Shown here piece by piece: positions 12,480 to 32,072 of a stretch of 32,806 nucleotides of DNA. Source of the DNA: an uncultured Bacteroidia bacterium (GTDB taxonomy: Bacteria > Bacteroidota > Bacteroidia > NS11-12g > UBA9320); contig CAJQIC010000028.1 in NCBI GenBank assembly GCA_905478335.1, positions 1-32,806 on the forward strand, written 5' to 3'. The position numbers and the translations under genes were made by a program. Within the stretch, counting starts at the first letter, position 1; each line of letters starts with the position of its first letter. The notes under the pieces are model-generated. The model was not told where the DNA came from and did not search any database. It was given only the letters and a program-made list of their open reading frames with translations.

Positions 12480-13334
12480 ATGTCAGGAAGTTTCTATAGT
12501 AATTCAACATTCGTAGCAATTGTCATTTTGGCGATTGTGTTATTGTTGATTGCTGCTTTAATGGTTTACGTACTTCGACACATCACCTCGATACTAAAAG
12601 ACAAGTCGGGTGCTGAAGTTGAACCGGGTTTTTTCGAGAGAAACATCAAGCCAAAAATGGATTCTTGGAATCCAACAATTGTTACCTTATTAGTAATTGG
12701 TTTGTTGGTTGTAGTTGGCGCTGGTTATGGTTCGGCTTATATGGCTACCGAAATTGGTGTTCAGCAAGGGTATTCGCCAGATCAACCTATTAATTTTCCG
12801 CATACAAAGCATGCCGGAGCCATGGGTATTGACTGTCAGTACTGCCACACAACTGCCGGTAAGAGTAAACACGCCAGTATTCCATCAGCGAATACGTGTA
12901 TGAATTGTCACAAGGGTGCTCAGCTTAGAGATAACTACGGAGGAAAGGTTTCTCCAGAGTTGATGAAGTTGTACGAATCAGTTGGTTTTGACCCTGAAAC
13001 CTCAACCTACGATCCAGATGCAGAAACATATCCATTAAAATGGGTACGTATTCATAACCTACCAGATTTGGCTTATTTCAATCACTCTCAACACGTAACT
13101 GTTGGGAATGTTGAATGTCAAACTTGTCACGGTCCTATAGAGGAAATGGAAAAAGTAGAGCAGTTCTCGACACTCCAAATGGGTTGGTGTGTGAATTGTC
13201 ACCGTCAGCGTGGTATTGATGTTAAGAACAACAAATACTACGAAGACGTACATAAGGAAATGAAAGCTAACAAAGAACATTACGTAACGGTTGCCCAAAA
13301 CGGTGGCTTGGAATGTTCGAAATGTCATTATTAA
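12480..13334 (+). CDS. actA: Alternative Complex III subunit ActA, pentaheme cytochrome c
   Basis: The electron-transfer cytochrome of the quinol-oxidising Alternative Complex III, anchored in the inner membrane facing the periplasm. The 284 residues hold two predicted membrane segments (about 11-33 and 66-88) and then a c3-type heme domain with exactly five CXXCH sites, at C119, C140, C213, C237 and C279. Extra histidines (FPHTKHAG, FNHSQH) could serve as distal ligands. It is first in the operon and followed at close range by actB. The sequence before the second membrane segment resembles the anchor part of longer Bacteroidota ActA proteins that, as I recall, also carry an N-terminal monoheme cytochrome domain. 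No such domain is present upstream here. Confidence 0.93.
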   Translation: MSGSFYSNSTFVAIVILAIVLLLIAALMVYVLRHITSILKDKSGAEVEPGFFERNIKPKMDSWNPTIVTLLVIGLLVVVGAGYGSAYMATEIGVQQGYSPDQPINFPHTKHAGAMGIDCQYCHTTAGKSKHASIPSANTCMNCHKGAQLRDNYGGKVSPELMKLYESVGFDPETSTYDPDAETYPLKWVRIHNLPDLAYFNHSQHVTVGNVECQTCHGPIEEMEKVEQFSTLQMGWCVNCHRQRGIDVKNNKYYEDVHKEMKANKEHYVTVAQNGGLECSKCHY

Positions 13335-13359
13335 TTTAATCTCAACGTTTTATATATCA

Positions 13360-16300
13360 ATGAGTAATTCTGAAAATAAATACTGGAGAGGAATTGAAGA
13401 GTTGGAGGCAAATCCTGCCACGTTAGAAAATATCAGCAACGAATTTTCTGATAAGCTTCCAATGGAAGAGATTCTTGGCGATACTGAAGAGTTATCGTCA
13501 AATCGAAGAGACTTTTTAAAATTCTTCGGTTTTAGCGTAAGTGCTGTAGCATTGGCTGCGTGTAATAAAACACCAGTGAAGTATGCGATGCCTTATATCA
13601 ACAAACCGGAAGAGGTAACTCCAGGTCACGCATTATACTATGCCACTACGTGTGGTGTATATAATGAAGGTTTCCCTGTTATGGCTAAAGTACGTGAAGG
13701 ACGTCCAATCAAATTGGATGGTAATCCTGAAAGTCCATTAAGTCAAGGTGCAGTCAATGCAGCAGGACAAGCAAGTATTCTTTCTCTTTATGATACCAAT
13801 CGAATTCCACATCCGATTGTCGATGGTTCTGAAGTTGAGGACTGGGCCGAGGTTGACAAAAAAGTAGATGGGATATTAAAAGGTGCATCAGGTGATGTAT
13901 ATATTGTTTCTAGAACGGTAACGAGTCCAGTTTTACAAGCTTCTATTCAGAAGTTTATGGACACGCACAATGCAAAACACGTGATATATGATCCAATCTC
14001 ATATTCAGGTATTAGAGGTGCGAATAAAGAAAGTTTTGGAGCAGATGTTATCCCTTCATATAATTTCGACAAAGCTGACGTCATTGTAAGTTTTGGTGCT
14101 GATTTCTTAGGTACTTGGATATCACCAACAAGATTTACTGCTGATTATTCAAAAAATAGAGTTCCAACTCCGGAAAATCCGGATATGAGTAAGCATTATC
14201 AAATTGAATCTTTGCTTTCGCTCACAGGAACAAATGCAGATTACCGTTATTCTATTCCTGCGAGTAAACAAGGTAAGTACTTGGTTAGCTTATACAATAT
14301 GTTGTCAGGAGCAGGTGGTGATTTAGAGTTGCCTGGTAATGCACTGAAACAAATTGCTTCAGAATTATTAGCAGCTAAAGGTAAGGCCTTGGTTGTTTCT
14401 GGTTCAAACGATAAAAGCGAACAAGTTATCGTAAATGCCATTAATGATTTATTAGGAAGTTACGGAAGCACAATTAATTTCTCTGCTTCAATGAATATTT
14501 CTCATTTCGATGAAGCTGCCTTTGATTCATTTGTAAATAACGCTGGTAAAGCTGGAGCCATTGTATTGTTAGATGCAAATCCAGTGTATTCTTACCACAA
14601 CGGTGCGAAGCTTGCAGAGGCAATGAAAAATGTTCCTGTAATCACAACGGCAATGGTTGTTGACGAGTCGTCAAACGGAGCTGTTGTTCATGCACCAAAC
14701 AATCATACGTTAGAGTCGTGGGATGTTTATCAACCGATGAATGGTCACTACGTGACTTCACAACCTGTTATATCTAAGGTATTTAATACACGATCTGCAG
14801 CTGAATCTTTAAGAACTTGGGCTGGCGAGAAAGTGGCAATGGGTGAAGATCAGGCAAGCCACCAGTGGGTTGCTGATTACCTAACAAATGACTTAGGTGC
14901 AGATGCAAACAAAGCGTTCCATGATGGATTTGTTGAAAAATCAACTGAGCGTGTTTCTTCTTCATTTGCAGGTTCCATATCTGCCGCTTCTTCAAGTATT
15001 GCGTCAAGTTATACTGAATCAGCAGGTTTTGATTTGGCGTTATACCAAAAAGTAGGTGTATTGGACGGAAGTTCAGCATTGAATCCTTGGTGTCATGAGT
15101 TGCCAGATCCAGTAACAAAAGTTACCTATGATAATTATGTGTCCATCTCAAGACATGATGCAGAAACAAATGGTTGGGAGCAAGGAGACATCGTTAAAGT
15201 ATCAGGAAATGGTGCTGAAATAGATGCTCTACCGTTGTTGATTCAACCAGGACAAGCCAGAGGAGTTGTTGGTATCGCATTGGGTTATGGACGTAGCGTT
15301 CAAACCAACGCAGATAACGATTTAGTTGACTTAGGTAAAAATGCATACACATTCGTTCAATCTTCGTCATCAGGAACGAGTTACCTTGCTCAAAATGTAA
15401 CCATTGAGAAAGTTGATTCAGGATACGAGTTTGCTCAAACGCAAACGCATCATATGATTGAAGGTCGTGACTACTTAAGAGAAGCGACAATTGACGAATA
15501 CAAAAAAGACAACGCCGTTCGTAACGAGCACAAATTTGAAACAGTATCGCTTTGGAGTGACTATGATTACTCTAAAGGACATCACTGGGCGATGGCTATC
15601 GATATGAATGCGTGTACAGGATGTGGTTCATGTGTGGTAAGTTGCCATATAGAAAACAACGTGCCTGTTGTAGGACGAAAAGAAGTGCGCAGACGACGTG
15701 ACATGCACTGGTTGAGAATTGATAGATACTATTCATTCCAAACAGATGCAGATGAAACAGCATCTGTACGCGTTGGTCCTTCAAATGTTGATCAAGAATT
15801 CAAAAAAGGGGAGTGGTCAACCATGGAAAATGAGTTGGCTGGTTTAGATAAGAACTCGGCATCTGGTGATGAAGACTATGGTCACTATGACAATGTAAAG
15901 GTTGTACACCAACCTGTGATGTGTCAGCATTGTGATCATGCACCTTGTGAAACTGTATGTCCTGTACTTGCGACTACACACAGTAGCGAAGGATTAAATC
16001 AAATGACGTATAACAGATGTATTGGTACCAAGTATTGTGGTAACAACTGTCCATACAAAGTGCGTCGTTTTAACTGGTTTAGATATAACAAGAACTCTAA
16101 GTTCGATTACCACTTCAACAACGAGTTGGGCAGAATGGTGTTAAATCCAGATGTTACTGTTCGTTCAAGAGGGGTAATGGAAAAATGTAGCTTCTGTGTT
16201 CAGAACATTCAAATGGCTAAGTTAAATGCAAAAATTGAAAACAGAAAGTTAGAAGATGGTGATGCACAAACTGCTTGTGCAAAAGCTTGTCCATCAAATG

Positions 16301-16458
16301 CAATTGTTTTTGGAGACAGAAATGATCCAAATAGCAGAATTGCTAAGATGTACAAAAATGACCGTTCATATAAGATGTTGGAAGAAGTAGGTACAGATCC
16401 TTCTGTATTATACTTAACCAAGATTAGAAATAGAAAAGAAGAAGTTCAACATTCATAA
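13360..16458 (+). CDS. actB: Alternative Complex III subunit ActB, Fe-S/molybdopterin-oxidoreductase-like
   Basis: The large peripheral subunit that carries the iron-sulfur clusters of Alternative Complex III. With the start at ATG 13360 (MSNSENKYWRG) it has 1032 residues. The frame is open back to 13291, but that stretch overlaps actA and is not family-like. Near the N-terminus RRDFLKFFGFSVSAVALAAC is a Tat-like signal ending in a possible lipobox. The middle is a molybdopterin-oxidoreductase-like region in which I see no cofactor-binding cysteine motif. The C-terminal part is ferredoxin-like: NACTGCGSCVVSCH, CQHCDHAPCETVCP, CIGTKYCGNNCPY and CSFCVQ with CAKACP. An unusually Ser-rich stretch (SSSFAGSISAASSSIASSY) lies just before the family-conserved NPWCHELPDPVTKVTYDNYV. 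It is translated between actA and actC with short gaps. Confidence 0.94.
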   Translation: MSNSENKYWRGIEELEANPATLENISNEFSDKLPMEEILGDTEELSSNRRDFLKFFGFSVSAVALAACNKTPVKYAMPYINKPEEVTPGHALYYATTCGVYNEGFPVMAKVREGRPIKLDGNPESPLSQGAVNAAGQASILSLYDTNRIPHPIVDGSEVEDWAEVDKKVDGILKGASGDVYIVSRTVTSPVLQASIQKFMDTHNAKHVIYDPISYSGIRGANKESFGADVIPSYNFDKADVIVSFGADFLGTWISPTRFTADYSKNRVPTPENPDMSKHYQIESLLSLTGTNADYRYSIPASKQGKYLVSLYNMLSGAGGDLELPGNALKQIASELLAAKGKALVVSGSNDKSEQVIVNAINDLLGSYGSTINFSASMNISHFDEAAFDSFVNNAGKAGAIVLLDANPVYSYHNGAKLAEAMKNVPVITTAMVVDESSNGAVVHAPNNHTLESWDVYQPMNGHYVTSQPVISKVFNTRSAAESLRTWAGEKVAMGEDQASHQWVADYLTNDLGADANKAFHDGFVEKSTERVSSSFAGSISAASSSIASSYTESAGFDLALYQKVGVLDGSSALNPWCHELPDPVTKVTYDNYVSISRHDAETNGWEQGDIVKVSGNGAEIDALPLLIQPGQARGVVGIALGYGRSVQTNADNDLVDLGKNAYTFVQSSSSGTSYLAQNVTIEKVDSGYEFAQTQTHHMIEGRDYLREATIDEYKKDNAVRNEHKFETVSLWSDYDYSKGHHWAMAIDMNACTGCGSCVVSCHIENNVPVVGRKEVRRRRDMHWLRIDRYYSFQTDADETASVRVGPSNVDQEFKKGEWSTMENELAGLDKNSASGDEDYGHYDNVKVVHQPVMCQHCDHAPCETVCPVLATTHSSEGLNQMTYNRCIGTKYCGNNCPYKVRRFNWFRYNKNSKFDYHFNNELGRMVLNPDVTVRSRGVMEKCSFCVQNIQMAKLNAKIENRKLEDGDAQTACAKACPSNAIVFGDRNDPNSRIAKMYKNDRSYKMLEEVGTDPSVLYLTKIRNRKEEVQHS

Positions 16459-16473
16459 TAAAAGGTAGAAATA

Positions 16474-17820
16474 ATGTTTGAAGCATCAATAAGACAGCCC
16501 CTTGTAGAAGGCAACAAATCAATCGCTGACGTTAGTAATGACATTTGCGCACCGATTGAAAACAAACCTACGAAACTATGGTGGCTCGGTTTTACCCTTT
16601 CATTTGCGTTCTTAATGTTAATGGTCTTGTCGTTAGGCTGGACTGTTTGGGAAGGTATTGGTACATGGGGAGTTAACAAAACAGTTATGTGGGGTTGGGA
16701 TATTACCAACTTCGTATTCTGGGTAGGTATTGGTCACGCGGGTACGTTGATTTCTGCCATCCTGCTTTTGTTCCGTCAAAAGTGGAGAATGTCGATCAAC
16801 AGGAGTGCGGAAGCGATGACGATTTTTGCGGTACTTTGTGCGGCTCAATTTCCACTGTTCCACATGGGACGTGTATGGTTGGCTTACTGGGCGTTACCAT
16901 TACCAAACATGTTTGGATCACTATGGGTTAACTTTAACTCACCGTTATTATGGGACGTTTTCGCGATTTCGACTTACTTATCGGTTTCGTTATTGTTCTG
17001 GTACTTAGGTTTAATTCCGGATATCGCTACAGTTCGTGATAGAGCTGTAACGAAGGCAAGAAAATTCTGGTATGGATTTTTTGCCATGGGATGGAACGGT
17101 TCTGCAAGAACTTGGCACAGATATGAAATTGTAGCCTTAATCTTGGCTGGGGTTTCTACACCACTTGTACTTTCTGTACATACGATTGTATCCATGGACT
17201 TCGCGACCTCGGTAATACCAGGTTGGCACACCACGATTTTCCCACCCTACTTCGTTGCCGGTGCAATTTTCTCTGGTTTCGGTATGGTGTTAACACTACT
17301 CATCATTGTGAGGAAGGTGTTGAATTTGCAACAATATATTACAATAGGTCACTTAGATGCCATGACTAAAGTAGTCATGCTGACGGGTTCGATTGTAGGT
17401 GTTGCTTACTTAACTGAGTTTTTCATTGCGGCTTATTCAGGTGTTGTATACGAACAATATGCATTCTTGAATAGAGCATTTGGGCCTTATTGGTGGGCAT
17501 ATTGGACTATGATGAGTTGTAACTTATTGGCTCCTCAGGTATTCTGGTTCAAATGGGCTAGAACTACACCTTGGTTCATCTTTATGTTATCCATCGTTGT
17601 AAATATTGGAATGTGGTTTGAGCGATTTGTAATTATTGTTACGTCGCTACATAGAGATTATTTGACTTCGTCGTGGGCAATGTATTCTGCGACCATTACT
17701 GAGGTTGGAATTTTCTTAGGAACGATGGGACTGTTCTTTACTTGTTTCTTCTTGTTCAGCAAGTTTTTACCGGTAATCAACATGTCGGAAGTGAAGAGTA
17801 TTATTAAAAGTAGAGAGTAA
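16474..17820 (+). CDS. actC: Alternative Complex III subunit ActC, NrfD-like quinol-binding membrane protein
   Basis: Integral membrane subunit of the NrfD/PsrC family, 448 residues and strongly hydrophobic, with about ten membrane helices. Typical features are IRQPLVEGNKS at the N-terminus, VFWVGIGHAGTLISAILLLF, QFPLFHMGRVWLAYWALPLP, VSTPLVLSVHTIVSMDFATS, PGWHTTIFPPYFVAGAIFSG and FVIIVTSLHRDYLTSSW. These match the quinol-oxidising subunit of Alternative Complex III. The ATG lies 15 bases after the actB stop, within the operon. ActF is its distant paralogue at the end of the operon. Confidence 0.95.
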   Translation: MFEASIRQPLVEGNKSIADVSNDICAPIENKPTKLWWLGFTLSFAFLMLMVLSLGWTVWEGIGTWGVNKTVMWGWDITNFVFWVGIGHAGTLISAILLLFRQKWRMSINRSAEAMTIFAVLCAAQFPLFHMGRVWLAYWALPLPNMFGSLWVNFNSPLLWDVFAISTYLSVSLLFWYLGLIPDIATVRDRAVTKARKFWYGFFAMGWNGSARTWHRYEIVALILAGVSTPLVLSVHTIVSMDFATSVIPGWHTTIFPPYFVAGAIFSGFGMVLTLLIIVRKVLNLQQYITIGHLDAMTKVVMLTGSIVGVAYLTEFFIAAYSGVVYEQYAFLNRAFGPYWWAYWTMMSCNLLAPQVFWFKWARTTPWFIFMLSIVVNIGMWFERFVIIVTSLHRDYLTSSWAMYSATITEVGIFLGTMGLFFTCFFLFSKFLPVINMSEVKSIIKSRE

Positions 17821-17841
17821 TTTGATTTTAAATCCTATAGG

Positions 17842-18738
17842 ATGTTAGATAAACAATTAATATTAGGTGTTTACGACAATGGAGATGATCTTCTAACGTC
17901 AGTAAAAAAACTTAGAAAAAAAGGTGTAGAAATCTTTGATTGCTACACACCTTACCCGGTTCACCATCTGGATAATGAGATGGGCATTAAGCGATCCAAC
18001 TTAACGGTAGGCGCATTTCTATGCGGCCTTACAGGATTCTTTCTTGGTTTGTTGTTGCAATTTTATATGATGACAAACTTCCTCCATACCTTTAAGAGTT
18101 GGCCCATGATCATTGGTGGGAAGCCTCAAGATTATGGTATGTGGCCAAGTATGGTGCCTGTAACATTTGAAATGACTATTCTATTCACGGCATTTGGTAT
18201 TGGCTTCTTGTTTTTTGCTAAAAGCAAAATGATTCACGGTAAAATCGCTCAAATCATTGACCCACGTCAAACAGACGATAGATTATTCTTAGCAGTTGAA
18301 CCATCAGAATTGTCGAAAATATCTCGATCTGAATTGGATTCATTTTTGACTGAAAACGGTGCTATAGAGATTCGAGAAAGAAATCTAGATGGAAGTGCAG
18401 AGGTTGAGACTGCAGCTCCAGCTAAGCCAAAGACAAAAGCGAAAGCAGCGCCTAAAACAGCTGACCTGAGTGAAGAAGAGAAATCAGAAAAACTAGGTTT
18501 CCTACAATCAATTGTTGGAGAAGGCACAAGTGACCAAAAAGATGATTTGAAAGAAATCAGCGGTGTTGGTCCGGTATATGAAGAGAAATTAAATTCAATA
18601 GGCATATTTACGTTTGAGCAAGTATCAAAACTTACTCCAGAGTCGATTAAAGCCATTGAAGAGTTAACGAAATATTTCCCTGGAAAAATCGAACGTGAAG
18701 ATTGGATTTCTCAGGCTAAAAACTTAATGGACAAATAA
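17842..18738 (+). CDS. actD: Alternative Complex III subunit ActD (DUF3341) with helix-hairpin-helix C-terminal extension
   Basis: A small membrane subunit of Alternative Complex III. Residues 1-178 are the standard ActD: an N-terminal GVYDNGDDLLTSVKKLR, the CYTPYPVHHLDNEMG motif, two membrane segments (about 55-75 and 107-126), and PRQTDDRLFLAVE. The protein then continues for about 120 residues beyond the usual end. An Ala/Lys/Pro linker (187-206) is followed by an acidic helix and a domain at 234-296 reading LKEISGVGPVYEEKLNSIG, a helix-hairpin-helix pattern ending FPGKIEREDWISQAKNLM. Similar HhH tails are known fused to assorted Bacteroidota proteins; their role is unclear. It starts 21 bases after actC and ends 2 bases before actE. 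Confidence 0.93.
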   Translation: MLDKQLILGVYDNGDDLLTSVKKLRKKGVEIFDCYTPYPVHHLDNEMGIKRSNLTVGAFLCGLTGFFLGLLLQFYMMTNFLHTFKSWPMIIGGKPQDYGMWPSMVPVTFEMTILFTAFGIGFLFFAKSKMIHGKIAQIIDPRQTDDRLFLAVEPSELSKISRSELDSFLTENGAIEIRERNLDGSAEVETAAPAKPKTKAKAAPKTADLSEEEKSEKLGFLQSIVGEGTSDQKDDLKEISGVGPVYEEKLNSIGIFTFEQVSKLTPESIKAIEELTKYFPGKIEREDWISQAKNLMDK

Positions 18739-18740
18739 CT

Positions 18741-19766
18741 ATGCAGTTTTTACAAAAGCGAATGAATATAATTAACGGTTTGATGCTAGTAGCAGCAGGT
18801 ACGTTAGTAGGCTGTTCAGCTGGTGGAAACAAGCCAGGATATGAATATGCGCCAAACATGTACGAATCTGAGGCGTACGAAGCATATACTCAGACTGGAG
18901 ATATGAAGTATAATCCGAATGGCATGACCATGCGTTTACCTGTTGCAGGCGCAATTGCGCAAGGGCAAATGGGATATACCATGTATGCTGAAGGGTATGA
19001 AGCATCAGCCAGTTGGTCTAACCCAGTTGCGGCCACTGAGGCTAATGTAGCTGAAGGTATGCGTTTGTATAATATTCAATGTCAGCATTGCCACGGTAAA
19101 AAAGGTAAAAATGACGGCGGAGTTATTAAAAGCGGACAATATCCACCACCACCATGGGATGGGTATCAAGCAGATTACATTAAAACATTGCCAGACGGAA
19201 AAGCATTCCATTCTATTACTTACGGTAAAGGAAATATGGGTGCACATGGAAACGTTTTGTCTCCAAACGAACGTTGGAAGGTGTTACATTATGTAAGAAG
19301 CCTAAGTTTAGGAGAGGCGTTTGTATATGCTGCCGAAGGAACAGAAGACGAGGAAATTGTTAGCGCGAGTGCCAAAGCATTTGATGGTTTTGAATTGGTT
19401 GACATAGGACCAGATTTAGATATGATCAATGCGGCCATGAGAAATGTACATTTCAAAGGCTTGCAGTACAAAAAATTTGAGGAACAAAGCAAACCACATT
19501 TAGACAAGGTTGCCGCATATATGTCTAACAATCCTGAGTTAAAGGCTCTAGTTGTTGGTCACGTGGCTTCAGATATGAACGTACCTGGTTTAGGTGAGTT
19601 AAGCTTAATTAGAGCCAAGACGGTTTGTGACTACCTTGAATCAAAAGGCGTATCGAGAGATCGATTAAGCCCAAAAGGTAAAGGATCAACGATGCCAATT
19701 GACACCAATGATGACAAGATTGGGAAGTTGATTAATAGACGAGTAGAAATTTATTTCATTAAATAA
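18741..19766 (+). CDS. actE: Alternative Complex III subunit ActE, monoheme cytochrome c lipoprotein fused to an OmpA-like domain
   Basis: An exported monoheme cytochrome. A lipoprotein signal ends LVGC at C25; a second ATG at 18762 would shorten the N-terminus to a more standard signal. The ActE hallmark GYEYAPNMYESEAYEAY follows, then the heme site CQHCH at 114-118, with a methionine-containing GKGNMGAHGN and HYVRSLS for the sixth ligand region. Residues from about 235 to 341 form an OmpA-like domain: LDKVAAYMSNNPELKALVVG, LSLIRAKTVCDYLESKGV, LSPKGKGSTMP and NRRVEIYF. The Asp of the canonical GHTD motif is Ala (GHVA), while the Arg in LSxxRA is kept. I infer that the fusion could tether the complex to peptidoglycan, but the missing Asp makes binding uncertain. 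It sits between actD (2-base gap) and actF (17-base gap). Confidence 0.92.
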   Translation: MQFLQKRMNIINGLMLVAAGTLVGCSAGGNKPGYEYAPNMYESEAYEAYTQTGDMKYNPNGMTMRLPVAGAIAQGQMGYTMYAEGYEASASWSNPVAATEANVAEGMRLYNIQCQHCHGKKGKNDGGVIKSGQYPPPPWDGYQADYIKTLPDGKAFHSITYGKGNMGAHGNVLSPNERWKVLHYVRSLSLGEAFVYAAEGTEDEEIVSASAKAFDGFELVDIGPDLDMINAAMRNVHFKGLQYKKFEEQSKPHLDKVAAYMSNNPELKALVVGHVASDMNVPGLGELSLIRAKTVCDYLESKGVSRDRLSPKGKGSTMPIDTNDDKIGKLINRRVEIYFIK

Positions 19767-19783
19767 TCAGAATAGTAAAGAAC

Positions 19784-21232
19784 ATGGGACACCATCACAT
19801 ATCTGAGGTAAACGACGAAAAGTATATTTTCACTGGCCGATCAAAAGTAATAGTCGGTTTAGTGTTTGTAGTTGGATTAATTCTGACATTTATTGGAGTG
19901 AATCAAATCAAACATGAAGATGCACATAAAAGTGGTGCAGCAAATGTTGAAGAACACGCCGCAACAAATCAAGACCTTCCTGTCCATACAGTTGGGATGC
20001 AAGATGATCACCAAGCACATGGTGATGAATCACATGCTGAAGAGCACACAGAGCACGCAGAAGCGTCTCACGGTGAAGAAGCTCATGGTGAGGAAGAACA
20101 TGCTGAAGCGCATGGCAGTCACCACGGACCTTCATGGTTGGCAAGATTATGGGCAAACTTATTATTAAACTCATATTATTTTATGCTGTTCGCAGTGGGA
20201 GCGTTGTTTTTCTTAGCGGTTAACTATGCTGCGAATGCGGGATGGTCGACTTTGTTAAAACGCGTAATCGAATCCATTACATCATACATACCTATTGGAA
20301 TTTTAACATTAGGTCTTGTAATCTATTTTGGTAAAGAACACCTATACCATTGGGTGGTCTATTTAAACCAAGGTCTGGATGCCGGACAGCCAGGTTTTGA
20401 TAAGATACTTGCCGGGAAAGACTGGTTCTTGTCGTCAGGATGGTTATTAATTGGGGTGCCAACGATCATGATTATCTGGTGGGTGTTCCGAATCATTTTG
20501 GTGCGTTTATCTCACAAAGAAGATGAGCAAGGTGGCCTTTCTTTCTTTAAGAAAAGTGTAATCTATTCTGCCGCTTTCTTAGTGGTATTTGCATTTAGCT
20601 TTTCTGTATTGAGTTGGTTGGTGATGATGAGTATTGACCCACACTGGTACAGTACGATGTATTCGGTTTACAATTTTGCCATTGCATTTGTAACATCACT
20701 TACAGTGATTTGCTTCTTTACATTATACCTGAAGTCAAAGGGGTATATGGAAGTTGTATCTGACGAAGTGATTCACGATTTGGGTAAGTTTATGTTTGCC
20801 TTCAGTATTTTCTGGGGATACATCTTTGTTTGTCAGTTCTTATTGATCTGGTATGCCAACATCACAGAAGAAAGTATCTACTTCGCGCAGCGCTTAACAC
20901 CTAATTTTAAGTGGTTCTTCCGAAGTAATATTATCATGTGTTTTGCACTTCCTTTCTTGATCTTAATGATGCGTAACGCAAAAAGACACCCAAAGGTGTT
21001 ATTGGTTGCTGGATCTATGATCCTTTTAGGCCACTGGTTAGACTTATTCATTATGATCATGCCTGGTACTGTTGGACAATCAGCGCAGATAGGCGTACTT
21101 GAAATTGGATTAACTATGGCATTCGCAGGGTTGTTTATATTCTGGGTGCTTAATAACTTGTCAAAACGAAACTTATATGCTAAAAATCACCCGTATTTGC
21201 TAGAGTCAGCAAATCACGACGTTGGTGTATAA
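19784..21232 (+). CDS. actF: Alternative Complex III subunit ActF, NrfD-like membrane protein with His-rich insert
   Basis: The second NrfD-type membrane subunit, 482 residues with about ten membrane helices. Family marks are LARLWANLLLNSYYFMLFAV, WFLSSGWLLIGVPTIMIIWW, SVLSWLVMMSIDPHWYSTMY, MFAFSIFWGYIFVCQFLLIW and HPKVLLVAGSMILLGHWLDL. The first helix (22-40) is followed by an unusual His/Glu-rich stretch (residues 44-114, 15 His) before the conserved body begins at GPSWLARLW. Given that helix this stretch should lie on the periplasmic side. The gene closes the operon: a strong terminator follows 20 bases later. In many Bacteroidota cytochrome oxidase genes (coxB, coxA) come next; here they do not. 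Confidence 0.94.
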   Translation: MGHHHISEVNDEKYIFTGRSKVIVGLVFVVGLILTFIGVNQIKHEDAHKSGAANVEEHAATNQDLPVHTVGMQDDHQAHGDESHAEEHTEHAEASHGEEAHGEEEHAEAHGSHHGPSWLARLWANLLLNSYYFMLFAVGALFFLAVNYAANAGWSTLLKRVIESITSYIPIGILTLGLVIYFGKEHLYHWVVYLNQGLDAGQPGFDKILAGKDWFLSSGWLLIGVPTIMIIWWVFRIILVRLSHKEDEQGGLSFFKKSVIYSAAFLVVFAFSFSVLSWLVMMSIDPHWYSTMYSVYNFAIAFVTSLTVICFFTLYLKSKGYMEVVSDEVIHDLGKFMFAFSIFWGYIFVCQFLLIWYANITEESIYFAQRLTPNFKWFFRSNIIMCFALPFLILMMRNAKRHPKVLLVAGSMILLGHWLDLFIMIMPGTVGQSAQIGVLEIGLTMAFAGLFIFWVLNNLSKRNLYAKNHPYLLESANHDVGV

Positions 21233-23895: not shown

Positions 23896-24582
23896 ATGAA
23901 AAAAACAATTTTAATCGTTGTCGTGGCAGCCTTTGTTGTGCTTACGTCAATGAAATTATCATCAAATAAAACAATGCAAGGACAAACAGAAATTGACGCA
24001 TTATCGTATGCTTTAGGCATCAATGTTGGAAACAATCTTAAATCAAGTGGATTTGAGTCAGTGAATCCAGATGAATTTATCAAAGGATTAAAAGAGGCAA
24101 TGGCCGGAGATGTTTCTGAAGAAACATTAGCAACGACCAACGCAGCGATTCAAAACTACATGCAAGAAATTGAAGCTGAGAAGGCTAAGGAGTTGGGTAA
24201 ATTAGGCGCAGAATTTTTAGCAGCAAATGCGAAGAAAGAAGGCGTGGTAACCTTAGCTAGTGGATTGCAGTACAAAATCATTACAGCTGGAACTGGCCCT
24301 AAGGCAGTAGACGGCGATCAAGTAACAACTCACTACACAGGTAAATTTATTGACGGTAAAGTATTTGACAGCTCAGTAAGTAGAGGAGAACCTGCTACAT
24401 TCGGTGTTAATCAAGTAATCAAAGGATGGACTGAAGCGTTAAAACTTATGCCAGAAGGATCTAAGTGGGAATTATACATTCCGTATGACTTGGCTTATGG
24501 TGCTCAAGGTCGACCACCACAAATTCCTCAATACTCAATGCTAATATTCGAAATCGAATTATTAGACGTCGTAGGGAAGTAA
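23896..24582 (+). CDS. FKBP-type peptidyl-prolyl isomerase, paralogue without lipobox cysteine
   Basis: A second Mip/FkpA-type isomerase, 228 residues, clearly a tandem duplicate of the preceding gene. Shared blocks include LSYALG in the N-terminal domain, GLQYKI, HYTGKFIDGKVFDSS, INxVIKGW-like VNQVIKGW, GSKWELYIPYDLAYG and LIFEIELLDVVGK. The N-terminus MKKTILIVVVAAFVVLTSMK has the same hydrophobic core as its neighbour, but Met occupies the place of the lipobox Cys (LTSM versus LTSC). This copy is therefore probably membrane-anchored by an uncleaved segment or released to the periplasm. The FKBP pocket loop is GAQGRPPQIPQYS, longer in prolines than in the neighbour. A terminator follows. Confidence 0.93.
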   Translation: MKKTILIVVVAAFVVLTSMKLSSNKTMQGQTEIDALSYALGINVGNNLKSSGFESVNPDEFIKGLKEAMAGDVSEETLATTNAAIQNYMQEIEAEKAKELGKLGAEFLAANAKKEGVVTLASGLQYKIITAGTGPKAVDGDQVTTHYTGKFIDGKVFDSSVSRGEPATFGVNQVIKGWTEALKLMPEGSKWELYIPYDLAYGAQGRPPQIPQYSMLIFEIELLDVVGK

Positions 24583-24662: not shown

Positions 24663-24797
24663 TAGCTGATAGTTGATAGTTGATAGTTGAGAATTGAAAG
24701 TTGAAAGTTGAAAATTGAGAATTGAAAACGTTAAATCCTCCAATCCTCCAATCCTTCAGTCCTTCAATCCTTCAATCCTTCAATCCTTCAATCCTTC
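24663..24797 (-). repeat. Composite short-repeat array, inverted copy: nine heptamers then eight octamers
   Basis: Positions 24663-24725 are nine 7-base units on the + strand (TAGCTGA, TAGTTGA three times, GAATTGA, AAGTTGA twice, AAATTGA, GAATTGA). After an 8-base spacer, 24734-24797 are eight 8-base units (AATCCTCC twice, AATCCTTC five times, AGTCCTTC once). Read on the - strand the order is GAAGGATT octamers followed by TCAAYTN heptamers, exactly the plan of the array at 21310-21478 in the opposite orientation. Confidence 0.92.
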
Positions 24798-24978
24798 AAA
24801 CAATCACCTCTTATATAAGTTATTTTGTAACATGCTTTTAGTCAAGAATTTGTGCAAATTATAGCGTAAATTGGCTAGTTACATTGTGTGCGTATATCAC
24901 TATGTTTTGGTAATCTTAATGTCAAATTATTTTGACGGAGATGGTGTCTTATCAGTTTAAAAGTTTTAACGTTGGTGT

Positions 24979-26313
24979 ATGAAGCGCATACTTACCCTCT
25001 TTTTATTCCTTGCCGTTTTGTTGCAAGCGTGCCGTAAAGATATCATTGAAGAAGACCTCGTTAAGAATGCAGAGGGTATTTCCGTCTTTGATTTAAACGC
25101 AAGAGCAGTCATTAGCATGCAAAAAATTCCAGGGGTAGGTTACACCGTACTGTATTCTGCTAGCAAGAATTTTACTTTCGCAAATGTGGGTTCAGCGTTG
25201 ATAAACGAACATGGCAAACTCATCAGTTCTAATACCTATGGAGGTAGCCTAAACGATTTTATATCAAACTATACGAATGATGACGAGGGTAATACCTACG
25301 TATGCGGATCAACCTTTAGTCCTGAAATTAGAATTAACACACTTCCTTCACCCTATAATCCGAGCGATGATGCCTATCTGTGCAAGTTAGATGACAAAGG
25401 AAGTCTTTTGTGGCAGATTGGTTATAGTGATACGGCTACAGCCAATTTTGGAAGTCTTGGTGAAATCTTTCAATAGGTTGAGTTGGTTGGAGACTCCGTA
25501 TACTGTTACGGTCAAACACAAAATTATAAAAATTTGGGTCAACCAAACCCCAACGACTTGCTCGCCGACAATTGGCTAGTTGTTTTTGATAAAAATGGAC
25601 AATTTGGAAGCAAGCGTCTTCTTCCAACGCTACAGAAATCACGAAGCCTTGGACCTGTTACACCTCAGAATAAAATGATTAAGTGTTCCAACGACGATAT
25701 CATATTTGTGAACAATTTGAACAGAAGTAACCTACCAGTGCCTCCGACATATGACACAACGTGTGTCATTACCCGCTATAACCCAGCTAATGGGTCTGTG
25801 TTGTGGACTAAATATGGGACTAGAGACCTTCCGGAAGGAGACATTAACCAAATCGTGGAATTGTCTAACGGAGACCTTTTTGTCCTGAATTTTGCGAAAT
25901 CGAAAGTCATTAAATTAAGTAGTTCGGGTGATATTATAAACACAAGTGACATTGATATATTTGACCAAGACAGAAGCGCAAACGCTTTTTACGACGGAAA
26001 CCTTAAAATGGTAGGAGATGACCTCTATTTCGCTGGTATTACGTCAAATGGCCAAGGATTTAGCATTGGTGTTGACCTTAGTTCCAGCACTGTTTATAAG
26101 GGATCTCAACCTTGGCTCGTTAAGATGGATTTTGATGGCAATGTGCTCTATTCCAAATTTTATGATGTTACTGAAGGATACTTCAACGATATTCTACAAA
26201 AAGACAATGGAAACCTCCAGATGCTTGGAGCAGCAGCAAAATACGGAACATCAAGTTATTCTGGGTTTCTGATGACGTTGGACGCCGATGGAGAAATTGT
26301 TACAACTAATTAG
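24979..26313 (+). pseudogene. Propeller-like lipoprotein gene interrupted by an in-frame TAG
   Basis: A single reading frame of 445 codons is split by an amber codon at 25474-25476 (codon 166). The first part has a lipoprotein signal ending LLQAC (C18), then repeats such as DDEGNTYVCGST and GSLLWQIGYSDT. Translation past the TAG continues VELVGDSVYCYGQ and keeps the same repeat style (IVELSNGDLFVLN, GDDLYFAGITSNG, VKMDFDGNVLYSKF, GFLMTLDADGEI) to the stop at 26313. The second half has no signal peptide, and its first start-like codon is a TTG at 25483, so it is unlikely to work alone. The whole looks like a surface beta-propeller lipoprotein, related in style to the next gene. It is a pseudogene, a recent nonsense mutation, a sequencing error or a readthrough gene. 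Function unknown. Confidence 0.8.
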
Positions 26314-26331: not shown

Positions 26332-27567
26332 ATGACAAAACGTTTTACGATCATCAGCGGTCGATTTGCCTTTTACATTTTTGCTTTGGTCTTGTTATCT
26401 AATTGTTCCAAGGTAGATGTGAATACACGATCTTCGACAAAATCATATTCGTTCGACACAAAATTTGCAACCTTGCAAGCTGGTGTTGTCGACAATAACG
26501 GAGAATATCTATACATCACGTTACTCAATATATTTACCAACGAAACGGAACTATTTAAGTTTGATTTGAATACGCTGGAAAAAGTGAAATCCTATTCAGT
26601 GGAGCTACCAAACACGATTACATTTGGACATAACTTGCTATATGCAACCGACAATCACTTGTATGGTCTACAGCAATCATATTTGGCTGGAACAGGTAAT
26701 TATGAAGTAACCACTAAATTCACTCCAGACTTGCAAATAGTTGGCACAGATACGGTCTTTAGATTGGACTCTGTTCCACCTTTCATACCCTCCTTAAATC
26801 TGCGAAGCAGATTATGTCAGCCAGCAGCCGGACAGTTTGCAAGGGCGACCACCATCCTTGACTACAATTTAAAATATGGGATTCGCTATGAATTGATGGA
26901 CGGAGAGTTCAATAGGGTCAAAACGGTAGTGGATACAAGTTCTTATCCGGGAATAGGGTTTCGTTTGGGTGTAAATCAAATGCTACCAACTTCGGATGGA
27001 GGTTATATAGTGAACGGTGTCTCTGCTACGCCTACAACCGGAATTGATTTTTTTATTGAAAAGAGAGATGCTGACTTTAATCAATTATGGACAACAACAT
27101 ATAGTACACCAGCAGTTGAAAATATTGCAGGAACAATTGAGAGCAATGGCTATTTCTACAGCTATGTAAAAGAGCTAAATCCAGAAACACAAATCTATAA
27201 TTTGTTTATGCTTCAGCATGACGATCAAGGAAATCTGGTAAAAAGGTTGGACTTAAAAAGTTCTGGAAAGGAAACAACGCTCAGAGAAACTTTCGAGCAA
27301 ACAGCAGATGGCGGGTTTTTATGCCCAGGTATGACTTCTGTAAATGCTACTCAGTCTTCGTCAAAAGCTATTTTGTACAAGGTCAGTCCTGACTTGGAGA
27401 TAGAAAGCTATGAGGTTTTCGGAGAGTCCGTAATTTCAGGTAATATCTACAAAATTTCGGATAATAAATTCGTCTATGTATATGGAGAAATGGGTTTTGG
27501 CCCAGAGGAGGGGGACCTTCGAACAGTATTGACCTGCGTAGACCAGAACGGTAAAGTAATTAAGTAG
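26332..27567 (+). CDS. Propeller-like lipoprotein, function unknown
   Basis: A 411-residue exported lipoprotein. The signal ends LLSNC (C25), preceded by a hydrophobic core and a charged start. The body has repeated segments in the style of beta-propeller blades: GEYLYITLLNIFTNETELFK, SDGGYIVNGVSATPTTG, FFIEKRDADFNQLWTTTYST, TADGGFLCPGMTS and LTCVDQNGKVIK. I do not recognise a named family beyond this. It begins 18 bases after the interrupted lipoprotein gene and ends 5 bases before the first of two barrel genes, so the four are very likely one operon and may form one outer-membrane assembly (inferred from position only). Confidence 0.8.
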   Translation: MTKRFTIISGRFAFYIFALVLLSNCSKVDVNTRSSTKSYSFDTKFATLQAGVVDNNGEYLYITLLNIFTNETELFKFDLNTLEKVKSYSVELPNTITFGHNLLYATDNHLYGLQQSYLAGTGNYEVTTKFTPDLQIVGTDTVFRLDSVPPFIPSLNLRSRLCQPAAGQFARATTILDYNLKYGIRYELMDGEFNRVKTVVDTSSYPGIGFRLGVNQMLPTSDGGYIVNGVSATPTTGIDFFIEKRDADFNQLWTTTYSTPAVENIAGTIESNGYFYSYVKELNPETQIYNLFMLQHDDQGNLVKRLDLKSSGKETTLRETFEQTADGGFLCPGMTSVNATQSSSKAILYKVSPDLEIESYEVFGESVISGNIYKISDNKFVYVYGEMGFGPEEGDLRTVLTCVDQNGKVIK

Positions 27568-27572
27568 ACACA

Positions 27573-28607
27573 ATGAAAAGAATATTATTCATATTATTAA
27601 TAATTTCTCAAACAGGCTTCTTGTTTGCCCAACAAGATTGTGGCGAAAATATCTTCAATGCCAATCGCATGTACAAAAACGGGTTGTTGAAGGAAGCAAT
27701 AGTACTGGTGACGCCTTGCACGCAGTCAGAGAATATTACAGACCGATGGCAAGCGGAAAAACTTTTGACGTTGTGCTACCTTGCTCAAGAAAACCCAGAA
27801 GAGGCTCGTAAATCGGCAGAACGCATGATGGAGTTAAACCCAACCTATAATCCGAGTGATGCCACTGATCCTAAAGAACTTATCAAACTATTAAATTCTG
27901 TTCAAGTCTTGCCAAAATTGTCTCTAGGCCTAACAACCATTGTTGGATTAAATATGACTCAAGTTCAAGTCGTAAATTCAATAAGTGGAGCGTCTTATAG
28001 CAAGGATTATACGGGTAATAATGGTTGGCAGTTTGGTCTGAGTATAGGCTATAATTTTAATAAAAACTTGTCTCTACACTCAGGTTTAATTGCCTTTAAT
28101 AAAAGATATGACATCTCGTATGCATTCGAAGACAGATACCAGGTAGATGTCAAAGTACGGATGACGTATTTAGATATTCCATTATACCTGCGATTTAAGT
28201 CCCCAATTAGTAAAAAGTTTGAAGCCTTTGTTAATATGGGTGGTTATGGAGGACGCCTTGTAAGTGCTGAGGCCGATTTTTTATTAACAAAGAAACTTGA
28301 CGAAGAAAATTCCATAACGTTTTCGGACAATGGCCTTAGTTCTATAAATCGCAAGAATAAAATGGAATTCGGAATGCTTACAGGAATAGGGTTATCGACT
28401 AATCTTAAGAATGCCGCATTATCTCTTGAGGTTAATTATTTCAATGGGATAAATTATAACCTTACCAACAGCGATAATAGATACGCAGATGGCGAATTGT
28501 TAATGAGCTATTTTTACCTAGACGATGATTTAAGGTTAGACAACCTTAGTATTTCATTGAGCTATGTGGTCAACATCAATTACAAAGTGTACAAAACAAA
28601 AAAATAA
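27573..28607 (+). CDS. Exported helical-repeat plus outer-membrane beta-barrel protein (copy 1)
   Basis: A 344-residue protein with a signal peptide (MKRILFILLIISQTGFLFAQ). A short TPR-like region follows: DCGENIFNANRMYKNGLLKE, AEKLLTLCYLAQENPEEARK, MMELNPTYNPSDATDPKELI. From about residue 115 the sequence alternates polar and hydrophobic residues in the manner of a PorT-like or opacity-type barrel (LSLGLTTIVGLNMTQ, GWQFGLSIGYNFNKNLSLHS, MTYLDIPLYLRFKS, SISLSYVVNINYKV). A conserved cysteine pair (DC near residue 22 and TPC near 50) is shared with its neighbour. The stop lies one base before the ATG of that paralogue. Role unknown. Confidence 0.82.
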   Translation: MKRILFILLIISQTGFLFAQQDCGENIFNANRMYKNGLLKEAIVLVTPCTQSENITDRWQAEKLLTLCYLAQENPEEARKSAERMMELNPTYNPSDATDPKELIKLLNSVQVLPKLSLGLTTIVGLNMTQVQVVNSISGASYSKDYTGNNGWQFGLSIGYNFNKNLSLHSGLIAFNKRYDISYAFEDRYQVDVKVRMTYLDIPLYLRFKSPISKKFEAFVNMGGYGGRLVSAEADFLLTKKLDEENSITFSDNGLSSINRKNKMEFGMLTGIGLSTNLKNAALSLEVNYFNGINYNLTNSDNRYADGELLMSYFYLDDDLRLDNLSISLSYVVNINYKVYKTKK

Positions 28608-28608
28608 G

Positions 28609-29661
28609 ATGAAACAACGATTTTATACACTCAAAAAAGCCGTCATATTCGCAGTATGCTGTATGATTTGTTCAGCAGTATATGCGCAAACAGACAATTC
28701 CGACTGTTCTAGTGTACTGTCAAAAGCAAGCTTGCTATATGAAGGAGGGAATTTTGTTGAATGCGTTAGTACTTTGACCCCCTGCTTGTCAAGTCTACCG
28801 AAAGATAGAATATATGAGGCACATCGGTTACTCGCATTGTCTCATATGTCGTTAAACAATACTGAAAGCGCGAATGAATCGATTATAAACTTGCTTCAGG
28901 CAAAACCCAATTACACCACATTCCCTTTTTTCGACCCAACCAAGTTTAGTACGATGTTGCAAGGGTACGATGTATATCCCAAGTGGGAGCTAGGAATCGT
29001 GTTAGGTATGAATGTTTCATCGGCGTCGCCAACCAATAACTACTCGATTACCAACTCTCCGGCATCTTATGTATCTAAAAACGGGTACCAAGTAGGTTTC
29101 ATGGCAGAGCATTTCTTACGCAAACGATTATCTATACAAGCGAAATTACAGCTACAGGGAATCGGTTACGGCAGGGACGCTGATGACGTGTTAGGATGGA
29201 AACAAGAGTACACGGAAACAATGACTTTCATAAACATTCCGTTAGTCGCAAGATATGCTGTTCTTCCAGATGTTTCAGGTTGGAAAATTTCTGCAGAAGC
29301 AGGATTAGGCGGGCATGTTTTATCTTCTACCAATTCGGTAATCTACTTAGAAGACTCGCGAATAAATGATGGTAGCAAGCTGCAACGTTCTACAGATCAA
29401 GTTGATTCTAGAAATTCATTATTGTTCTCAGGTTTATTGGGCCTCTCTGCAAAGCATCAATTTGGTGAAGCCATTGTTGGTCTTGAGGTGAGATCTTCGT
29501 TTGGCATGAGCAACGCAATAAAAAGTGAAAATAGGTGGGACAACTTAGAATTCATTACGGCCAACAACTACGTAGACAGCGATATCAGACTGAATACCAT
29601 GTCTTTTAACATTACCTATCAAAGACCAATCCGTGGCCAGTATTCTGTAAAGCTTAAATAA
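28609..29661 (+). CDS. Exported helical-repeat plus outer-membrane beta-barrel protein (copy 2)
   Basis: A paralogue of the preceding gene, 350 residues from ATG 28609. The frame extends back to 28564, but the extra 15 residues overlap the neighbour and precede a proper signal peptide (KKAVIFAVCCMICSAVYAQ). The mature start SDCSSVLSKASLLYEGGNF and STLTPC mirror copy 1, as does NYTTFPFFDPTKFSTMLQGY before the barrel. Barrel strands include WELGIVLGMNVSSASP, GYQVGFMAEHFLRKRLSIQA, TFINIPLVARYAV, GLEVRSSFGMSNAI and NTMSFNITYQRP. Last gene of the four-gene module; no hairpin terminator is visible after it. The low visible identity to copy 1 suggests an old duplication. Confidence 0.82.
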   Translation: MKQRFYTLKKAVIFAVCCMICSAVYAQTDNSDCSSVLSKASLLYEGGNFVECVSTLTPCLSSLPKDRIYEAHRLLALSHMSLNNTESANESIINLLQAKPNYTTFPFFDPTKFSTMLQGYDVYPKWELGIVLGMNVSSASPTNNYSITNSPASYVSKNGYQVGFMAEHFLRKRLSIQAKLQLQGIGYGRDADDVLGWKQEYTETMTFINIPLVARYAVLPDVSGWKISAEAGLGGHVLSSTNSVIYLEDSRINDGSKLQRSTDQVDSRNSLLFSGLLGLSAKHQFGEAIVGLEVRSSFGMSNAIKSENRWDNLEFITANNYVDSDIRLNTMSFNITYQRPIRGQYSVKLK

Positions 29662-29745: not shown

Positions 29746-31152
29746 TTACTTCCCTCTTCCTTGAATCATGATCAAGGCGGTGTAAATAAGAATCTTAAAG
29801 TCGAGCGCCAGCGATATGTTTTCTACGTATAAAATGTCATACTTCATACGTTCAAGCATTTCGTCAACATTCTCGGCATAACCGTACTTCACCTGCCCCC
29901 AACTTGTAATACCTGGTTTAACGCGATGTAAGCGCTTATAATGTGGTGCGCGCTCTACTATTTGGTCGATATAGTGTTGTCGCTCTGGGCGTGGTCCAAC
30001 CAACGTCATATCATTAATTAAAACGTTATAGAACTGCGGCAACTCATCCAAACGCGTTTTACGTAGAATTTTTCCAACTTTAGTGATTCTTGGATCGTCT
30101 TCTGAAGACAGCATCGGCCCACGTTTCTCGGAATCCGTATACATCGACCTAAATTTAAATATGCGAAATGGCTTACCACCTAATCCGATGCGTTCTTGAC
30201 TAAAAAAGATGGGACCTTTACTGGTTGCATAAACGGTCATAGCAATGATAAACAGAACAGGGAAGCCAATGATTAGGGCAAGAAGCGAAATGAAAATATC
30301 TAAAAAGCGCTTTACGCTTTTTTGCCAATCCGGCATCAGGTATGGGCTGATTTGAATGAGTAAGGCACCTAAAATATTATTGATACGCACGCTACCAGAT
30401 AAGATGTCGTACATATCGGGAATGATTTTGATGTTTACGCCACTGCCACTAAGCTGGTCAATGATTTTGTTAATCTTACTATGCTCACTCGTTTCAATCG
30501 CAATGATTGCCTCTTCAATCTGTTTGTTTTCAATGATGTTCGATAAAGCGGTATATGAACCGAGATGGTCCAGTTTGTCATCAAACAGGCCTTTATCCTC
30601 GCCATTTACATTGACATACCCCTTAAAAAGATAGCCCTCACTTTTCTTCGCATTTTCTAAATCTTGATACAGGCCAAAAGCTTTTTCGTCTGATCCAATT
30701 AATACGGTGTTAAATCCAATACGTCGGGTTTTTATCCTGTTGCCAATGCTTGTTGTAAGGATGAACCTAAAAAGCTCGGTGATGCCAAAATGGAAGCCAA
30801 ACAGAACGACAAAAGAGTTGTAATACTCCGTATAGGCCAGTACTTCGTCATCCAAAAGAACACCAAAAAATAAAGCAAGACAACCAAAGAAACTGACAAT
30901 AAGTACTTGGCTTAATTCCTTTAACCTTGATTTACGTAAGACCTCTTGATATTGGCCATAAAGATAAAATGCGAAAACCCAAAACAACGGAATACACACC
31001 AATCCTAAATAAAGTTTGGGGTCATTTAGGCCATTCTCATAAGCCTTATGTTCTAAGAAATGTGATCGGTAGAAGTAAAACAGGAGCCATGATATTGCTC
31101 CAGACGTTAAATCCGAAAAGAAATATAAGAGCTTGTAATATCGAAGTTTCAA
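29746..31152 (-). CDS. Exopolysaccharide polyprenyl glycosylphosphotransferase (initiating sugar transferase)
   Basis: Transfers a sugar-1-phosphate from a nucleotide sugar to undecaprenyl phosphate in the inner membrane, the first step of surface-glycan assembly. The 468 residues follow the WbaP/WcaJ plan: about four N-terminal helices, a CoA-binding-like Rossmann middle (TVLIGSDEKAFGLYQDLENA), a further helix (FLDIFISLLALIIGFPVLFI), then the catalytic domain with GPIFFSQERIGLGGKPFRIF, KFRSMYTDSE, TRLDELPQFYNVLINDM, LVGPRPERQHYIDQI and KPGITSWGQVKYGY. The start is TTG, overlapping the stop of the upstream lipoprotein gene in TTGA (31149-31152), so translation is coupled. It is the last gene of the leftward cluster seen here. 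Confidence 0.93.
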   Translation of the reverse strand: MKLRYYKLLYFFSDLTSGAISWLLFYFYRSHFLEHKAYENGLNDPKLYLGLVCIPLFWVFAFYLYGQYQEVLRKSRLKELSQVLIVSFFGCLALFFGVLLDDEVLAYTEYYNSFVVLFGFHFGITELFRFILTTSIGNRIKTRRIGFNTVLIGSDEKAFGLYQDLENAKKSEGYLFKGYVNVNGEDKGLFDDKLDHLGSYTALSNIIENKQIEEAIIAIETSEHSKINKIIDQLSGSGVNIKIIPDMYDILSGSVRINNILGALLIQISPYLMPDWQKSVKRFLDIFISLLALIIGFPVLFIIAMTVYATSKGPIFFSQERIGLGGKPFRIFKFRSMYTDSEKRGPMLSSEDDPRITKVGKILRKTRLDELPQFYNVLINDMTLVGPRPERQHYIDQIVERAPHYKRLHRVKPGITSWGQVKYGYAENVDEMLERMKYDILYVENISLALDFKILIYTALIMIQGRGK

Positions 31153-32072
31153 AAATGCAACAACTTTAGATTGTCAAAATAAAGTCGTGCGTTTGGATTA
31201 TCCGAAAAATTCTTTGCGTAAATAAATATTTTAAATGTTGCGTTTGCAAAACGCGGGTCACTCATATCCTCATTTAAACTTATATAACTCTTCTTCCATT
31301 CGCCGTTTGTTTTGAACAAATACAAAACGTTAACACGGTCGATTAGATCGCCACCTTGTGTGTACGCGTAAAAACCAATCTGAGCTTCAGATTCCAAATT
31401 GTAATTCATCTCTAAATAGGTCGAGGAATTGCTAGGTATCGTAAACTTACCAATGGTTGAGTTTTCAAATCTTTGATTGATGGAATCAAACTCCACATAA
31501 CCAGATACTTGGTTCAAAGGACTATGATTAAAGACCTCGTTGGCATCAAACGTAAGGCGGATAGAATCTTCTTCTATATCAATGCCACTAGGTTCAAAAC
31601 TAATTGTGCGGTCTTCAAAGTCTTCAATCCACTTAAATTCTGTAGAGTCGTGGTAGCTAATTTTTGGAAAAAACGAATCAATTCCACCAGGAGTTACTAT
31701 AAGTGTGTCCTGAATTGCACGGTAGTAGGGATATATCTCGCGATCATCTGATCGGCCATTTTTCTTTATACCTGCTAAAACGGTCACAAGAACGGTGTCC
31801 GTGGCTATCACAGGAACTGTTACGGGCACTTCAAACGCACCAACGAGTTGACCATCAACGTATACCCATGCGTCACGAATGTCGTGGGCATTGCTTCCTT
31901 GACTATTGTCGGACTTGGTATCAAGCTCGAAATTGTCGATGAAAAAGTACACAGGTGTAGGCTCTTCTCGATCAAATACATTGCAAGCACTTAATGCAAC
32001 TATTGCGAAAGCAACTAGGATTGTTTGAAAAGGTTTTAAAAAGGACGATGGCTTTGCAGCGATTTTTATCAT
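31149..32072 (-). CDS. Lipoprotein of unknown function in the glycan cluster
   Basis: A 307-residue exported lipoprotein with a signal core QTILVAFAIVALSAC (C30). The mature part starts FDREEPTPVYFFIDNFELDT, continues with a strand-rich segment containing AWVYVDGQLVGAFEVPVTVP, and ends in a carbohydrate-binding-module-like half (FEDRTISFEPSGIDIEEDS, LEMNYNLESEAQIGFYAYTQ, NARLYFDNLKLLHF). The resemblance to a jelly-roll is by strand pattern only. The start overlaps the stop of the oxidoreductase gene (ATGA, 32069-32072) and the stop overlaps the sugar transferase start, so all three are coupled. A role in surface-glycan handling or assembly is inferred from position. Confidence 0.8.
   Translation of the reverse strand: MIKIAAKPSSFLKPFQTILVAFAIVALSACNVFDREEPTPVYFFIDNFELDTKSDNSQGSNAHDIRDAWVYVDGQLVGAFEVPVTVPVIATDTVLVTVLAGIKKNGRSDDREIYPYYRAIQDTLIVTPGGIDSFFPKISYHDSTEFKWIEDFEDRTISFEPSGIDIEEDSIRLTFDANEVFNHSPLNQVSGYVEFDSINQRFENSTIGKFTIPSNSSTYLEMNYNLESEAQIGFYAYTQGGDLIDRVNVLYLFKTNGEWKKSYISLNEDMSDPRFANATFKIFIYAKNFSDNPNARLYFDNLKLLHF

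Follow-up and report, generated by a model that had tools for sequence, protein, structure and literature searches.

Stop codons within otherwise open reading frames are common in bacteria and mostly short-lived, with most of them found at the time scale of population polymorphism, and readthrough has been raised as a possibility for those that are conserved (Belinky et al. 2021, PMC7918605). A phase-variable gene, for its part, has a reversible element at its switch, be it a simple repeat, an invertible segment or donor copies of the gene. Our literature search for in-frame stops together with phase variation in Bacteroidetes found nothing. Here we describe a lipoprotein gene, LP1, that is interrupted by one TAG in a stretch of 32,806 nucleotides from an uncultured Bacteroidia bacterium (contig CAJQIC010000028.1 of assembly GCA_905478335.1), which we call the window (Table 1). 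The comparison with related genomes leads us to think that LP1 is probably one gene that a single nonsense substitution at codon 166 has recently inactivated.

Table 1. Features of the interrupted gene, its module and the flanks of the module (G001, G002 and G004, sister species; G011, a relative from another genus)
Feature	Position	Strand	Remarks
FKBP2, left flank of the module	23896..24582	+	identity 98/91/76% in G001/G004/G002
Two short tandem-repeat tracts (7/14-bp and 8-bp units)	24667..24799	+	non-coding, upstream of LP1
LP1, 5' part	24979..25476	+	putative lipoprotein signal peptide with Cys18, first (predicted) beta-propeller blades; terminates at the premature TAG
Internal TAG of LP1, codon 166	25474..25476	+	inside predicted beta-strand 159-170, flanked by family-invariant F164 and V167
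LP1, 3' part	25477..26313	+	278 codons, coding-like, without signal peptide; true terminator TAG 26311-26313
LP2, second lipoprotein, intact	26332..27567	+	27% identity to L006:1501-2766, E 2e-33; terminates in TAG
OMP1, TPR and outer-membrane beta-barrel (PF13568), intact	27573..28607	+	43% identity to G011
OMP2, outer-membrane beta-barrel (PF13568), intact in the window	28564..29661	+	codons 122-365 only remain in G001
Sugar transferase (PF02397), right flank of the module	29746..31152	-	immediately after FKBP2 in G002 and G004

The interrupted frame and its orthologues

Re-translation of the frame that opens with the ATG at 24979 shows exactly one internal stop, preceded by 165 codons, as the first-pass annotation of this DNA had described. 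Codon usage is coding-like on both sides of it (+21.8 bits before, +49.3 bits after), with a weak score at codons 200-280, and no second stop follows before the terminator, in keeping with the view of that annotation that the rest of the frame is undamaged. It had also stated that the downstream half lacks a signal peptide of its own, and we found none; the earliest possible start in this half is a TTG at 25483, and its first ATG lies 66 codons past the stop. The N-terminus of LP1 has a lipobox-like MKRILTLFLFLAVLLQAC, recognized by eye, and C18 is invariant across three species, with the Pfam model LPAM_1 matching below threshold (E 0.42). LP1 has no Pfam or NCBIfam assignment, and the promoter scan upstream of the gene gave scores no better than those of shuffles.

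When the two halves of LP1 were searched separately, both matched one and the same continuous frame in each of two further genera of the family. The E values were 5e-31 for one half and 1.9e-29 for the other in Bacteroidetes bacterium UBA6491 (G007, contig C111; DJML01000015.1), and 6e-26 and 1.7e-25 in Bacteroidia bacterium SW_48 (G011, contig C36; JAGVMN010000018.1). Each orthologue is a single uninterrupted lipoprotein of ~440 residues, without a second start. These two are the only full-length relatives that a profile of three LP1 sequences found in 108 genomes of the order, the copy of the window is the only one among those found to have an internal stop, and LP1 is absent from the other four members of the genus. 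The scan of contigs with the 3' half alone gave no matches, and the alignment query returned the same two orthologues.

Around the stop the alignment is gapless, the flanking residues F164 and V167 are identical in all three sequences, and both orthologues have a sense codon at the position itself, encoding a different residue in each. The first-pass annotation had named this comparison as a check on its claim of one lipoprotein gene split by a single lesion, to be abandoned if the orthologues ended at the same point and were followed by a separate second gene. They do neither, and the claim is upheld. Homologues with no interruption where the stop lies are also what one would expect of a gene inactivated by a nonsense mutation.

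The structure of the read-through frame was modelled from three sequences (mean pLDDT 73, pTM 0.76). The model is an all-beta propeller, and residue 166 falls within one of its strands, so a product ending at residue 165 would comprise little more than two blades. The impression that protein style and repeats run unbroken through the stop thus proves right if the repeats are taken as propeller blades of this predicted fold. We give almost no credence to LP1 being two genes, a short lipoprotein and a downstream protein translated independently from the TTG at 25483, where a mechanical ORF of 276 aa does begin: the orthologues, as single frames, already contradict it, the downstream part has no signal peptide, and the predicted fold requires both parts. 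A case of the opposite kind exists in the same genome, at the TAG of L065:9844, which we had considered as another interruption and rejected. There the relatives show two tandem paralogues with frames of their own, and the stop is a real boundary between genes.

Decoding of TAG

In the 1.03 Mb of the same genome that we sampled, taken as stretches, TAG terminates 106 of 406 long ORFs; within the window it ends the genes at 7826, 10183 and 26332, and LP1 itself. The genome has two class-I release factors, one with a PxT motif, which we take to be RF1 (UAG-reading), and one with an SPF motif, presumably RF2. A CUA anticodon was found in none of its 31 tRNAs (0/31). TAG therefore seems to act as a stop in this organism, and we discarded its reassignment or suppression on the basis of stop usage, RF1 and the tRNA set.

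Readthrough of UAG, whether programmed or tolerated, would provide low levels of the full-length lipoprotein, but it is very improbable in a genome that has RF1 and no detected CUA tRNA, and where genes often end normally in TAG, LP1 among them. The RNA fold of the 120 nt past the stop is no better than that of shuffles (z -0.72), and both orthologues have sense codons, whereas a stop maintained for readthrough should be conserved in relatives. Coding signal and conservation do continue past the stop of LP1, and in-frame stops under purifying selection, read as possible readthrough, are widespread in bacteria (PMC7918605), but the recency of the lesion accounts equally well for the persistence of the frame. 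We also consider it very improbable that a genuine stop, fixed in the species, is partially read through, so that the fragment of the lipoprotein and, rarely, the full-length propeller are both made. The first-pass annotation had left the choice between a recent event, a sequencing error and a regulated readthrough; the recent lesion stands, and the readthrough falls on the ordinary use of TAG, the decoding machinery, the unremarkable fold and the orthologous sense codons.

We also looked for interruptions elsewhere in the sampled genome, requiring at least 80 codons on either side of the stop, and checked the ten strongest of the other same-frame pairs. In most of these, two adjacent genes encode different domains, and for the pair at L070:10764 no domain was found. 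Only one of the ten, a DUF4468 gene, is a second true interruption, and we rejected a genome-wide pattern of readthrough.

The module, its fate in sister species and the upstream repeats

LP1 is the first gene of a surface module, as had been proposed. The order in the window is LP1-LP2-OMP1-OMP2, i.e., two lipoproteins and two TPR/beta-barrel outer-membrane proteins, and the genes other than LP1 are open and without decay. G011 keeps all four genes in the same order (identity of 27% for LP2, 43% for OMP1 and 39% for OMP2). In G007 the genes of the module appear as two convergent pairs across a contig break, and LP2 is truncated at the ends of the contigs.

The OMP1-OMP2 pair with lipoprotein neighbours is present in several copies in G002, from the same genus, and in G009, from the same family (L166-L170). 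The varying gene orders and orientations of these copies suggest a surface module that duplicates and rearranges. Two candidate stops within the OMP1 copies of G002 (one TAA and one TGA) were set aside as apparently terminal: the open frames have 352 and 355 aa, and the match to the first copy ends exactly on the terminal codon. In G011 (L006:5035-9605) and next to one of the G002 copies (L166:6681-11234), the module adjoins a gene encoding an nSTAND1-WD40 NTPase, followed by a divergent gene. The divergent gene of G011 encodes a GAF/adenylate-guanylate cyclase that matches Pycsar cyclase models weakly. Elsewhere in the window, at 12480-21232, there is an Alternative complex III cluster (multihaem cytochrome, Fe-S subunit, NrfD, ActD and cytochrome c).

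The flanks of the module are retained in the sister species. In G001, the nearest relative by identity of FKBP2 (98%), they enclose only the remnant of OMP2, fused to the intergenic repeat (L163:9316-10074, minus strand, contig G001:C43). At this junction, positions 24689-24733 and 28925-29658 of the window are adjacent, which is equivalent to a loss of about 4.2 kb. The deletion removed LP1, LP2, OMP1 and the start of OMP2, left the last two thirds of the latter, and has its left edge in the tandem-repeat region upstream of LP1 (about 24733). The dN/dS of the remnant is 0.10, against 0.02-0.03 for FKBP1, FKBP2 and the flank at 31149-32072, values for the other flanks being saturated or unreliable. 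In G002 and G004, FKBP2 and the sugar transferase are direct neighbours, i.e., the site is empty. Because of the remnant in G001 and the empty sites in G002 and G004, we conclude that the common ancestor of G001 and the species of the window had the module, and that the module is dispensable. Constraint has been relaxed, or the gene lost, in this clade, as is typical of genes inactivated by nonsense mutations. The loss of the module is illustrated by a point mutation in one species and by a multi-kb deletion in another.

The first-pass annotation had suggested that an on/off lesion in the first gene of a surface module would fit antigenic or phase-type variation. The module is indeed patchy and multi-copy in relatives, and tandem repeats do lie upstream of LP1, but we find reversible variation of a surface lipoprotein via this stop extremely unlikely. 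The stop is in non-repetitive sequence, CTTTCAATAGGTTGAG, where no homopolymer or simple repeat was found, and slippage therefore cannot toggle codon 166. No second copy of LP1 or LP2, which could be a paralogous donor for conversion, was found in the genome (scored 100% complete). The sole inverted pair found is imperfect and intragenic, with 18-nt arms (78%) placed 706 nt apart within LP1, and the annotated genes of the window include no recombinase. As for the upstream repeats, the 8-bp unit adjoins the 7/14-bp TTGAAAGT-like array in the window; as (CAATCCTT)n it recurs in the sampled genome at L034:12078, L036:8964 and L070:9608, and these copies show no sign of a link to genes of this kind. 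With no slippage tract, invertible flank or paralogous donor, switching through codon 166 would be without a mechanism in the sequence, and the suggestion is unsupported.

Age and nature of the lesion, and comparison with known systems

After the stop, the protein of the window shows 28% and 33% identity to the two orthologues, which show 27% to each other. There is no sign of decay in this part, because the window is as close to the orthologues as they are mutually. Around 3.8% of random substitutions downstream of the stop would create another one. When substitutions alone are considered, the absence of any further lesion allows, at the 5% level, for at most about 0.10 neutral substitutions per site. 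The bound decreases to about 0.03 if frameshifts are assumed to occur at 10% of the substitution rate. The lesion is young, although its age is not tightly bounded.

A consensus or sequencing error, or a minority allele in a draft or metagenome-derived consensus, would produce the same picture in one consensus genome while the living population has an intact LP1. We regard this as unlikely, but as an alternative of some weight: the assembly is a draft of 74 contigs, LP1 is otherwise undamaged, and the records of the two orthologues from other genera are labelled MAG. Furthermore, the DUF4468 gene of the same assembly (L083:13266-13844, minus strand, contig C59) has one in-frame TGA, in spite of being otherwise conserved: it is present in all five members of the genus, and its frame is uninterrupted in the three congeners that we inspected. 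This second stop is as much in keeping with real nonsense alleles as with occasional consensus errors. However, these are the only two such events in 1.03 Mb at the threshold of our screen, and the assembly is therefore not generally error-ridden. The stop of LP1 also lies in a module for which loss in sister species is shown independently, which is where a real lesion is likeliest.

We retain a nonsense substitution as the probable origin of the stop. Translation would then end at codon 165, and the resulting lipoprotein fragment could not close the propeller; it would presumably be non-functional or degraded. The lesion would persist because the module is dispensable in the clade, where it is being lost piecemeal. 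Judging from fold and neighbours, the normal product would be a lipid-anchored extracytoplasmic propeller with a putative role in ligand binding at the surface or in the periplasm, together with the two TPR/beta-barrel outer-membrane proteins. Overall, this looks like an ordinary nonsense lesion in one gene of a dispensable surface module, and a regulated switch is not supported. Its value is modest, as a lesion in a module that is patchy, that some relatives carry in several copies, and that sister species have deleted or lack at this locus. It also calls for caution, in that a single in-frame stop in a clean frame is not evidence of regulation.

The best PDB matches of the LP1 model are CylK (Z 28.4, rmsd 3.8, 361 residues aligned) and YncE (Z 24.2, 3.6, 304), and lower ones include BtuG1 (Z 21.9, 3.2, 280) and BtuG2 (Z 21.7, 3.4, 281). 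The model shares the propeller fold with the CylK propeller, with YncE of E. coli and with the B12-binding lipoproteins BtuG1 and BtuG2 of Bacteroides, but at only 8-19% sequence identity, and a shared propeller fold shows no function. As for the interruption itself, the stops retained by Belinky et al. (PMC7918605) were common to at least two species, whereas that of LP1 is known from one genome only; it resembles them in being one stop in an otherwise intact frame.
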